DNA from: Clostridia bacterium
GTDB lineage: Bacteria; Bacillota; Clostridia; Christensenellales; CAG-1252
Assembly (NCBI GenBank): GCA_017444385.1
Contig: JAFSWQ010000014.1
Span: 62,001-126,000, forward strand
Direction of reading: 5' to 3'
Length of the DNA stretch: 64,000 bases
Under the pieces are notes generated by a model. The model saw only the letters and a list, made by a program, of their open reading frames with translations. It did not search any database and had not been told where the DNA came from. Numbering within the stretch: position 1 is the stretch's first letter; the number at the start of each line of letters is the position of its first letter. The translations under genes and the position numbers were made by a program. Positions 6,724 to 46,436 of the stretch are shown here, one piece after another.

Positions 6724-8877
<2,154 letters not shown>

Positions 8878-8888
<11 letters not shown>

Positions 8889-42870: not shown

Positions 42871-44214
42871 TTATTTATTAAACAGAGTTTTATATCGCTC
42901 TACAAATCTTTTTACTTTGGTTTTACTTGGTAAAAGAGTAAAACGCGAGGACAAGTATTCTTCGGCCTTTTTATAGTCGACGGGGGTTTTCACCTCGCAT
43001 TCCACTTCATAGTCCACGTAATCGAGATAGACGTTTTTATCCCATTCGTATTTCAGCCCGTCAACGACTATGCACGAACGGAACGTGACGAGTTGACCGA
43101 CGTATTTCAAGGAATGTTTGAGATCTGCCCCGGTCAGTTTTTTAAGTTCGTCTTCGGTTATACCGTCTACGACGTAACGGCGGAATTCATCCTCGTCTAT
43201 GGCTTTGTTAAGTTCTATTCTTCCTTTTCCGTCCTCTCGGTTTACTTTATACGTAAATTCGTAAGCGCCGTTCTTCTCTCTTATTCTTCCGCCCGTCGTG
43301 AGATCGTCGGTCAAAAAATAATAATTGGTTTGAACGTTCTTTTCGGCATTTTCGGTAGCGGAAGAGTAGGTGTCTTCGCTCACTAAATACTTCAATTCCC
43401 ATTCCCAAGCGTTTTCTTCGACGGCTTTTAAATAACGTTTAGCGGATAATACCACTCGCTCGTCGGGAAAATCAAGCAGTTTCTCGGCTATCTCGAATTT
43501 TGAATAGTCTTTGTTATTGATAAACGCGTTAAGGCAATTAGCGATAAACCTCGCGGGGCGCAAATAGTTGCGGCCTAAAATATCGACGTACTTTTCCATC
43601 GCCTTTTTACCCTTTACGCAGTCGTAAAAGAACTCTTCGTCCACGACGGGGGACGAGCGTTCGGTCGTGTTTTTAGGACACGCCTTTTGGCATTCGTTAC
43701 AACCTAAAACCTTATTGCCGAGAAGTTTAGCGAGTTTTTCGTTCTCTATATATATTCTATCCTGTAATTCGCGAATACAAATATCGCGATTAAAGCCTTT
43801 ATCCGTCAAAGCGTGAGTCGGGCACGCTTTTATACACTCTCTGCAATCGCCACAACTATCGCTCGAGTAATGCGTATTATCGGGAAGGCTTACGCCGTTT
43901 ACTTTTATTATTTCGACGGTGAAAAAACTGCCGTATTTTTCGTGCAAACAAATGGTGTGTTTACCTCTTATACAGCCGTCCGCTTCGAGAATATCTTTAT
44001 AGGGAAGAGTAGGCTCTTCGATATCGTAATCTTTCAAAGCCTCTTTCAACGCCCATTTTCTCTTTCTCACCCTTTGATAGGCGGGATAGTAAGAGTCGAT
44101 AAAAAGCGTTGAGTCCACGGGCGGCGAATAGGTTTCGTATAAAACGAGATAAACGTCGCCCTTTATCGAGACCACGTCCGCGCCGTATTCATTCGCCAAA
44201 GATATGATATCCAT
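42871..44214 (-). CDS. QueG-like double-cluster ferredoxin protein fused to a CYTH domain
   Basis: A 447 aa two-part protein. Residues 1-265 resemble epoxyqueuosine reductase (QueG): a shortened N-terminal domain with KYGSFFTVEI, eight cysteines for two 4Fe-4S clusters (121, 124, 127, 131, 146, 172, 175, 179; CGDCRECIKACP and CNECQKACP), and a HEAT-like helical piece at 218-265. Residues 270-445 are a CYTH (triphosphate tunnel) domain: the EWELK signature at 271-275 is ExExK, followed by QTNYYFLTDDL, RIREKNGAYEFTYKV and a late YVDYEVECEV strand. QueG acts on tRNA; CYTH domains bind or cleave triphosphates. The fusion is not one I know. The gene ends the nth-obg-yhbY operon. Confidence 0.8.
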   Translation of the reverse strand: MDIISLANEYGADVVSIKGDVYLVLYETYSPPVDSTLFIDSYYPAYQRVRKRKWALKEALKDYDIEEPTLPYKDILEADGCIRGKHTICLHEKYGSFFTVEIIKVNGVSLPDNTHYSSDSCGDCRECIKACPTHALTDKGFNRDICIRELQDRIYIENEKLAKLLGNKVLGCNECQKACPKNTTERSSPVVDEEFFYDCVKGKKAMEKYVDILGRNYLRPARFIANCLNAFINNKDYSKFEIAEKLLDFPDERVVLSAKRYLKAVEENAWEWELKYLVSEDTYSSATENAEKNVQTNYYFLTDDLTTGGRIREKNGAYEFTYKVNREDGKGRIELNKAIDEDEFRRYVVDGITEDELKKLTGADLKHSLKYVGQLVTFRSCIVVDGLKYEWDKNVYLDYVDYEVECEVKTPVDYKKAEEYLSSRFTLLPSKTKVKRFVERYKTLFNK

Positions 44215-44225
44215 ACTAAATCAAA

Positions 44226-44519
44226 CTATTGAAGCAAATGCTTAACGCCCTCTTTGGAACTCTTGCGATAGATTATAATCTTACTGCCTATCGCGTGTAC
44301 GGGATCGGCGTCCAAAGCGTGGCACAAAGCGTCGATAACCTCTTTCGCGGTGTATTCGCAATTCTTTTGAACGCCAATTTTAAGCAATTCGTGGTCTTCG
44401 AGCATTTCGTCGACTTGCGCCAAAAAGGCTTCGGTAACTCCGTTTTTACCGAGATAAATAGTCGTGTTTACGTTGGTCGCTATTGAATTCAAAATACTTC
44501 TTTCTTTACTCGTTATCAT
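44226..44519 (-). CDS. yhbY: YhbY family RNA-binding protein (CRM domain)
   Basis: A 97 aa CRM-domain protein that associates with pre-50S ribosomal particles in other bacteria. It shows the typical IYLGKNGVTEAFLAQVDEML and a basic GSKIIIYRKS end; the GxxG-type loop reads GKNG. It lies 10 bases after obg and 11 bases before the QueG-CYTH gene. Confidence 0.93.
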   Translation of the reverse strand: MITSKERSILNSIATNVNTTIYLGKNGVTEAFLAQVDEMLEDHELLKIGVQKNCEYTAKEVIDALCHALDADPVHAIGSKIIIYRKSSKEGVKHLLQ

Positions 44520-44529
44520 AATTCACCTC

Positions 44530-45786
44530 TTAATCGACGAATACGAATTCTATGTCCGCGATATGAATGACGTCGCCGTCCTTCGCGCCTTGAGATCTTA
44601 ATTCGTCGAAAATACCTCTATCTTTAAGTTTGCGTTGGAAATAGCGGAAGGATTCGGGGTCGGATAGCACTACGTTTCTGACGAGCATATCAACGAAACC
44701 GCCCACTACCTCGAAATTGCCGTCCGAATAGCGAATAATCTCGTAAGAATCGTCGTCGTGATCGTCGTACTCGTAGAAATCTTCCACTATCTTGGTTTTG
44801 GGTTCTATCTTTACCACCGTCTCGGCGGTAACTTTCAATAATTTATCGAGATTTTTATGCGTTACCGCGCAAACGTCTATAACGGGTTTACCTATCGCCT
44901 TTTCAAATTTTTCCACCGCGCCTTCTTCGGCAAGGTCGGTCTTATTAGCGACCACTATTTCCTCTAATAAAGATAAATCTTCACTATAAGAAATAAGCTC
45001 TTTGCGTATCGTGAGATAATCCTCGACGGGATCCCTGCCTTCGTGTCCCGAAACGTCCACGACGTGTATGAGCATTCTCACTCTTTCGATATGTCGTAAG
45101 AAATCGTGCCCGAGCCCCACGCCTTCCGACGCGCCTTCGATAAGTCCGGGGATATCCGCTATAACGTAATTGTTATCGTAAAATTTTACCACGCCGAGAT
45201 TGGGGTTAATCGTAGTAAAATGATAATTTGCAATTTTGGGTTTTGCTTCGGTCATTACCGAAAGCAAGGTGGATTTACCGACGTTGGGGAACCCTATCAA
45301 ACCTATATCCGCTATCGTCTTCAATTCGAGTATAACTCTATGCTCGACGGTCTTTACGCCGTTTTGAGCGAACGAAGGCGATCTTCTCGTAGGGGTAGCG
45401 AAACAAGCGTTTCCTTTGCCGCCTCTACCGCCTTTTAGAACGACTTTACTCTCGCCGTCCACGCACATATCGGCAAGAACCCCGCCCGTTTCTTCGTCGC
45501 GAATTATCGTGCCTACGGGTACTTTTATAATCGTCGGCGCGCCCGATTTACCGGTTTGGTTGCTTTGCCCGCCGTTCTCGCCGTTTTCCGCTCTGAAATG
45601 GACTTTGAATTTAAAATCGTAGAGCGTGGTCATAGAAGCGTCGGCAAGAAAAACTATGTCGCCGCCGTTACCGCCGTTACCGCCGTCGGGACCGCCCGTT
45701 AAAACGTATTTTTCTCTATGAAAGCCGACTTTGCCGTTACCGCCGTTGCCCGCTTTAATATATATCTTCGCTACGTCTAAAAACAT
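44530..45786 (-). CDS. obgE: GTPase Obg/CgtA
   Basis: A GTPase for late 50S assembly, with stress and (in spore formers) sporulation links. At 418 aa it has an N-terminal Gly-rich Obg fold (GGPDGGNGGNGGD), a G domain (GFPNVGKSTLL, DIPGLIEGAS, ANKTDL), and a C-terminal OCT domain with a long acidic linker (EYDDHDDDSYE). A GGAGAG site precedes the ATG, 2 bases after the nth stop. Confidence 0.97.
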   Translation of the reverse strand: MFLDVAKIYIKAGNGGNGKVGFHREKYVLTGGPDGGNGGNGGDIVFLADASMTTLYDFKFKVHFRAENGENGGQSNQTGKSGAPTIIKVPVGTIIRDEETGGVLADMCVDGESKVVLKGGRGGKGNACFATPTRRSPSFAQNGVKTVEHRVILELKTIADIGLIGFPNVGKSTLLSVMTEAKPKIANYHFTTINPNLGVVKFYDNNYVIADIPGLIEGASEGVGLGHDFLRHIERVRMLIHVVDVSGHEGRDPVEDYLTIRKELISYSEDLSLLEEIVVANKTDLAEEGAVEKFEKAIGKPVIDVCAVTHKNLDKLLKVTAETVVKIEPKTKIVEDFYEYDDHDDDSYEIIRYSDGNFEVVGGFVDMLVRNVVLSDPESFRYFQRKLKDRGIFDELRSQGAKDGDVIHIADIEFVFVD

Positions 45787-45788
45787 AA

Positions 45789-46436
45789 TTACTCTCCTTT
45801 ATTATCCGCGTAAAACTTGCAATAACCTTTTACGCTACATTCTTCGCATTTGGGGTTTCGCGCCGAACAAACGTATCTTCCCAAAAATATAAGCCTGTGA
45901 TGGGTACGCGACCATTCGCCGTAAGGAATTACCTCGGTCAATCGTTTCTCGGTTTCCTCGGGCGTCTTCGTATCCACTAAGCCAAGTCTATTCGATACTC
46001 GAAAAACGTGCGTATCTACCGCGATGGCTTGTCCGCCGAACGCTTCCGCGTAAACCACGTTTGCGGTCTTTCTACCTACGCCGGCGAGTTTTTCCAAAGT
46101 ATCTCGATCTTTAGGGACTTCCCCGCCGTAAAGGTCTACTATTTGACGGGAACAGTTTATTATCGACTTCGCCTTGTTGTTGTAAAACCCGCAACTTCTT
46201 ATATAAGGAATGATATCCTCTTCGCTCTTTTTAGCCATCTCTTCGGCTGTCGGGCAGTATTCGAAGAGGGCGGGCGTAACGGCATTGACGCGTTTATCCG
46301 TACATTGAGCGCTCAAAATAACGGCTATCAATAGTTGATAGGGCGTTTTGAAATCGAGTTCGCAATGAGCGCTCGGAAATGTCGCGTCCAAAGTCGACAG
46401 CAAACCGTTTATCTTTTCGAGGTCGTAATTTTCCAT
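45789..46436 (-). CDS. nth: Endonuclease III
   Basis: A base-excision repair glycosylase/AP lyase for oxidised pyrimidines. The 215 aa protein has HhH motif LAGVGRKTANVV with the catalytic Lys123, Asp141 in VDTHVFRV (18 residues on, as in E. coli Nth), and the 4Fe-4S loop CSARNPKCEECSVKGYC. A -10 box ends 9 bases before the ATG and no SD is visible, so the mRNA may be leaderless. It heads the nth-obg-yhbY-QueG/CYTH operon. Confidence 0.96.
   Translation of the reverse strand: MENYDLEKINGLLSTLDATFPSAHCELDFKTPYQLLIAVILSAQCTDKRVNAVTPALFEYCPTAEEMAKKSEEDIIPYIRSCGFYNNKAKSIINCSRQIVDLYGGEVPKDRDTLEKLAGVGRKTANVVYAEAFGGQAIAVDTHVFRVSNRLGLVDTKTPEETEKRLTEVIPYGEWSRTHHRLIFLGRYVCSARNPKCEECSVKGYCKFYADNKGE

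Follow-up and report, generated by a model that had tools for sequence, protein, structure and literature searches.

The fusion gene and its two domains

The window analyzed here, a stretch of 64,000 nucleotides, derives from a 54% complete assembly of 0.92 Mb. On its minus strand lie nth (45789..46436, TIGR01083), obg (44530..45786, NF008955 and TIGR02729), yhbY (44226..44519, TIGR00253 at 67.8 bits, below the cut-off of 78.5) and, 11 bp beyond yhbY, a gene encoding a shortened QueG-like protein fused to a CYTH domain (42871..44214). These genes form a head-to-tail row with gaps of 2 to 11 bp, consistent with one operon and with the cotranscription proposed in an earlier note made from the sequence of the window. 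Ahead of nth, the first gene of this apparent operon, is a promoter-like site (46474-46446, minus strand) from a consensus scan only, which returned 7 such sites against 5.5 expected. The queuosine pathway genes that had been reported from the same window, tgt (6724..7881, TIGR00430, 508.8 bits) and queA (7866..8888, TIGR00113, 443.7 bits), overlap one another at 6724-8888, also on the minus strand.

Beside the fusion, glmS and a gene for an alpha/beta hydrolase are found both in the window and in G001, a genome of the same genus, and nothing redox- or tRNA-specific was seen in these two neighborhoods. Neither a preQ1 nor a cobalamin riboswitch was matched at Rfam gathering scores in the window or in the surroundings of the fusions. 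A Gut-1 RNA (RF01706) was detected at 1392-1463 of L021, some 5 kb away from the G003 fusion gene, with a score just above threshold (52.1 bits). Upstream of the fusion, four genomes (L004 2-1027, with equivalents in L002, L003, and L005) share two genes, one for the tail of an M29-type metallopeptidase and one for a small protein in which a hydrophobic W-HP-T/G-W repeat occurs twice and which matched nothing in Pfam or NCBIfam.

The coordinates given in the earlier note, 42871-44214, were confirmed, but it is the minus strand that forms a single open frame of 447 residues; the plus strand is interrupted by stops. Residues 1-110 (43885..44214) correspond to the compact nitroreductase-like, cobalamin-binding-type region of QueG. 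The eight Cys of two [4Fe-4S] clusters (121, 124, 127, 131, 146, 172, 175, and 179; 43678..43854) follow in the order and spacing of QueG, as judged by the Fer4_16 match (121-182, E 2e-12) and residue alignment to 5d08 and 5d6s. A HEAT-like helical tail with a G-x-N-Y-x-R-P motif at 214-220 occupies residues 194-269 (43408..43635). Residues 270-442 (42889..43407) make up the CYTH, or triphosphate-tunnel, domain (PF01928 at 271-437, E 1e-17, 64.8 bits against a cut-off of 23.2), which opens with the ExExK signature EWELK at 271-275 (43390..43404). Both the cysteines and this signature had been read correctly before. The match of the NCBIfam QueG model TIGR00276 was limited to residues 83-187 (E 4e-19) and scored 68.7 bits where the cut-off is 200, and the QueH domain PF02677 was not among the Pfam matches. 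When searched with phmmer against solved structures, residues 83-183 matched epoxyqueuosine reductases and residues 271-440 matched two CYTH proteins.

An AlphaFold2 model of the fusion was built from a 30-row alignment (mean pLDDT 92, pTM 0.78) and compared with known structures using VIA-align. Residues 1-272 aligned with Bacillus subtilis QueG from the first residue (Z 20.6, rmsd 3.2, 266 aligned), the helices of the tail included, and the next family was RdhA (Z 10.8). Residues 235-442 aligned with BH2851 (2gfg, Z 19.4) and with 3sy3 (Z 16.0), placing the eight-stranded tunnel, with its ExExK and ExE residues, after residue 270, where the earlier note had expected it. The call of a QueG-like module followed by a CYTH domain was thus upheld by both Pfam matches and predicted folds. 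Almost no linker separates the two in the model, in which a helix (252-269) is followed directly by a strand (272-278). A stand-alone relative, L033 (285 residues, pLDDT 95), was predicted to have the same B12-type domain, two-cluster ferredoxin, and helical repeats as the window protein; 278 of its 285 residues aligned with QueG (Z 22.5), followed by RdhA (Z 10.9) and, weakly, B12 proteins of the CblC/CblD type (Z about 8 for CblC).

The N-terminal shortening that had been pointed out leaves the stretch ahead of the first Cys approximately 60-70 residues shorter than its QueG equivalent, and binding of a corrinoid by this region is for that reason not assured. Since the window model and L033 align to QueG throughout, the shortened N-terminus is nonetheless predicted to form a QueG-like domain. 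Crystallographic and docking work on Streptococcus thermophilus QueG assigned proton donation to Tyr-101 and Asp-130 and stacking to Trp-288, and crystal and mutant work implicated the catalytic Asp (D130 in S. thermophilus, D134 in B. subtilis) (PMC4646009). Canonical QueG proteins carry D-Y-H and V-D-T-G motifs. The catalytic Asp column was occupied by Asp in 12 of 13 canonical proteins, in none of the six proteins comprising the fusions and the split relative, and in 6 of 30 proteins of the short clade, where its scattered occurrence is likely due to chance in a variable loop. The tryptophan of the W-R-G motif is replaced by Tyr in the fusions (N-Y-x-R-P). Tyr43 (44086..44088) is invariant in the short and divergent clade and is likely the counterpart of Tyr-101, an equivalence assigned by hand, the automatic alignment setting it two residues off; Lys73 is nearly invariant in the clade, with Arg in a few members. 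The suspicion of an altered cobalamin and active-site region was therefore borne out in that the canonical Asp is not conserved, but the segment retains the QueG fold overall and along its full length. Because the curated TIGR00276 score and the catalytic Asp were both lacking, we treat the protein as a variant working like QueG and not as a certified member of the family.

All 21 tunnel and core residues examined in the CYTH half were identical in the five fusions and in the separate CYTH protein of a sister genus, including E271, E273, and K275 of the signature as well as R310, R312, K323, R379, E403, and E405. Glutamates among the conserved CYTH residues hold metals in AtTTM3 and YgiF (PMC4641920). 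Class IV adenylyl cyclases (CyaB) are marked by HFxxxxExExK and thiamine triphosphatases by WxRxR (PMC8233210). The former is absent here, residues 265-266 being V-E, and so is the latter, with Gly at position 308 before R310-I-R312, and we rejected both assignments. With the tunnel residues kept and these signatures missing, the CYTH half is probably, by default, a tripolyphosphatase-type TTM or a general triphosphatase.

Origin of the fusion

The fused frame was found in five of the six genomes of the genus, namely the window genome, G001, G002, G003, and G005, and the other fused proteins are 34-38% identical to that of the window. An alignment-based scan of genome contigs recovered three fusion-bearing GenBank MAGs, which proved to be the same contigs as those of G002, G003, and G005; a scan for close relatives with the window protein as single query gave no match. 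In G019, of the sister genus, the QueG-like and CYTH parts are encoded by two genes, the CYTH gene coming second after a gap of 14 bp. The recurrence of the fused frame in four other MAGs of the genus, together with the split neighbors in G019, rules out a frameshift, an assembly artefact, or chance, the frameshift having been raised in the earlier note as a possible undoing of its proposal. The two-domain gene, a shortened QueG joined to CYTH, is a real fusion.

The five fused proteins formed one group (SH-aLRT 91, moderate) in a tree built from 62 QueG-like proteins; the split G019 protein was the sister of this group (support 83, moderate), and the whole was nested among short stand-alone QueG-like proteins. 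With the halves adjoining one another in G019, this topology indicates that a single fusion of two adjacent genes probably took place, in which the stop between the neighbors would have been lost and the CYTH domain joined to QueG. The short proteins, together with full-length divergent ones from other Clostridia families, lay on the side of the tree sister to canonical QueG. Neither the fusion, which the earlier note had presented as unfamiliar, nor the short clade was found described in the literature searched, the original QueH discovery report lying outside that search.

QueG forms of about 260 residues were also noted in L091, L094, and about 25 genomes of the class. They score below the NCBI cut-off and have no counterpart to the initial ~80 positions of the QueG model, and those inspected have the canonical Asp. 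N-terminal shortening of QueG seems to have happened more than once.

Exchange of the short QueG clade with QueH

QueG works with a corrinoid, and the usual alternative to it is QueH, an unrelated enzyme. We examined 297 genomes of the order for either enzyme, using the label sQueG for the shortened clade, which falls below the NCBI QueG cut-off. Canonical QueG above the TIGR00276 cut-off was found in none of the 297, with E. coli and B. subtilis as positive controls; no separate full-length queG, which the earlier note had proposed to look for, was detected. The sQueG family profile gave matches all over the order and counted 71 genomes at E 1e-8, a threshold chosen after the scores were seen; QueH was present in 217 genomes and queA in 284.

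The two families were distributed in a nearly exclusive manner: 69 genomes had sQueG only, 215 QueH only, 2 both, and 11 neither (Fisher p 5e-53, not corrected for relatedness). Restricting the comparison to queA-bearing genomes left the picture unchanged (66, 208, 2, and 8, respectively). Both states occurred within 13 families, in which a single genome held both genes, and even within the genus of the window, where QueH is present and the fusion absent in G004, and the reverse is true of the other five. The source genome being 54% complete, its lack of QueH rests on its four fusion-bearing relatives, at 91-100% completeness, in which a search for a separate QueH likewise found none. A comparison across the class, covering 243 genomes, set all QueG-like proteins against QueH and gave 94 with the former only, 136 with QueH only, 4 with both, and 9 with neither. 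The short clade obeys the general rule of QueG/QueH exchange.

At the thresholds used, sQueG and QueH occurred together in no genomes of the order but G255 (L035) and G177, and G039, counted as having neither, has a QueG-like match by the other profile. In G088, G193, and G235 (91-96% complete), and in the less complete G093 and G205, queA is present but the searches turned up no QueH and no QueG-like protein; such genomes may possess a further epoxyqueuosine reductase or make epoxyqueuosine (oQ) as their end product. Directly upstream of the split pair of G019 (L010 89-820) is a gene whose product resembles flavin reductases and has a rubredoxin-like CxxC pair at its C-terminus, possibly the electron donor for the reductase.

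Proposed function and comparison with known systems

Since sQueG replaces QueH genome by genome, we consider it likely that the QueG half is the oQ reductase of this genus, a shortened and diverged QueG joined to a CYTH domain, and the queuosine link that had been offered as a possibility is now much stronger. Against this reading stand the score far below the QueG cut-off, the missing Asp, and the genomes with both genes (2) or neither (11). Tgt and QueA would make oQ-tRNA. Electrons travelling through both [4Fe-4S] clusters would reach a base-off corrinoid seated in the compact N-terminal domain, the short clade probably still being corrinoid-dependent. Co(I) would then attack the epoxide of oQ, with a proton coming from the invariant Tyr43 and another group replacing the missing Asp, and Q-tRNA would be released. 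The CYTH half would bind Mg or Mn and a triphosphate, and most likely hydrolyze inorganic tripolyphosphate or a nucleoside triphosphate.

It is rather improbable, in our estimate, that the substrate of the QueG half, as a corrinoid/iron-sulfur reductase, is something other than oQ, with the QueH swap arising indirectly through lifestyle or vitamin B12 supply. In favor of this view, the canonical catalytic Asp and the W-R-G motif are lost, and other QueG-like paralogues co-occur with QueH (G407, G436, and G495, for example), so that being QueG-like does not by itself make a protein an oQ reductase. If the short clade acted elsewhere, however, the queA genomes without QueH would lack any known enzyme for completing queuosine, and the exclusion is seen inside 13 families and inside one genus. 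The new RNA- or triphosphate-linked redox enzyme to which the earlier note had given equal weight is not favored for the QueG half.

For the CYTH half, there is a substantial chance, a little short of even, that it has no functional tie to queuosine and that a cotranscribed gene pair simply merged into a bifunctional product. The other sQueG genes fetched had no CYTH gene within about 1.5 kb, the QueG-CYTH pairing is confined to one family, and CYTH domains are known with many unrelated partners, including HD, exopolyphosphatase, kinase, and CHAD (PMC8233210). Yet all tunnel residues examined have been retained across five diverged species, and the domains are joined in the model with almost no linker. 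This rigid join would also suit an accessory tRNA- or nucleotide-binding module that positions the substrate or couples the reductase to ATP, for instance by keeping the corrinoid reduced; RNA triphosphatases are among the tunnel-fold relatives (PMC4641920), but stand-alone sQueG proteins do without a CYTH domain, and we regard such a role as unlikely. Far more remote is the removal by the CYTH half of tripolyphosphate formed in the queuosine pathway itself, at the QueD step. QueD releases tripolyphosphate, the type of substrate used by CYTH proteins. YgiF, for example, hydrolyzes it (PMC3440374). However, QueD (PF01242) was not found in any fusion-bearing genome, its sole match in the family being in G004, which has no fusion, and the proposal is largely refuted. 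The absence of QueD suggests that the fusion-bearing species import preQ1 or preQ0 and carry out just the final part of queuosine synthesis.

A wider and still speculative proposal, to which we give a low probability, joins both halves: a second widespread QueG clade of short and divergent Clostridia proteins would reduce oQ without the Asp, and in one genus the reaction would be coupled to or gated by triphosphate through the rigidly attached CYTH domain, which would make the fusion the first reductase in tRNA modification to carry its own triphosphate sensor or hydrolase.

Queuosine is a nutrient salvaged by hosts. If the preferred assignment of the short clade as oQ reductase is correct, most queA genomes of this large gut order that seemed to be without the last queuosine enzyme have one, below annotation cut-offs. 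Predictions of which organisms make queuosine would change, as would those of vitamin B12 need, because QueG uses a corrinoid and usually swaps with QueH. The loss of the canonical Asp would provide natural variants for testing the QueG mechanism. The physiological role of CYTH proteins is poorly known, and the fusion would offer a handle on it.

The fusion resembles QueG (5d08, 5t8y, 5d6s; TIGR00276) in its fold, eight-Cys two-cluster core, helical tail, G-x-N motif, and tgt/queA context, and differs from it in the shorter N-terminus, the unconserved catalytic Asp, the change of W-R-G to N-Y-x-R-P, the score of 68.7 bits against 200, and the additional CYTH domain. With QueH (PF02677) it would share the last-step queuosine role and the same genomic slot, but the families are unrelated and QueH is absent wherever the fusion is found. 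Reductive dehalogenases (RdhA; 4uqu, 4ras) have a similar corrinoid-binding and two-cluster core fold, but align with the fusion and the stand-alone sQueG at a Z of only 10-11, against 20-22 for QueG. The second half shares the tunnel fold, ExExK, RxR, and ExE with the CYTH/TTM proteins, BH2851 (2gfg) and GBAA_1210 (3sy3) being the closest solved, and stands here behind a QueG module, whereas the partners named for CYTH domains are HD hydrolase, exopolyphosphatase, nucleotidyl kinase, and CHAD (PMC8233210).
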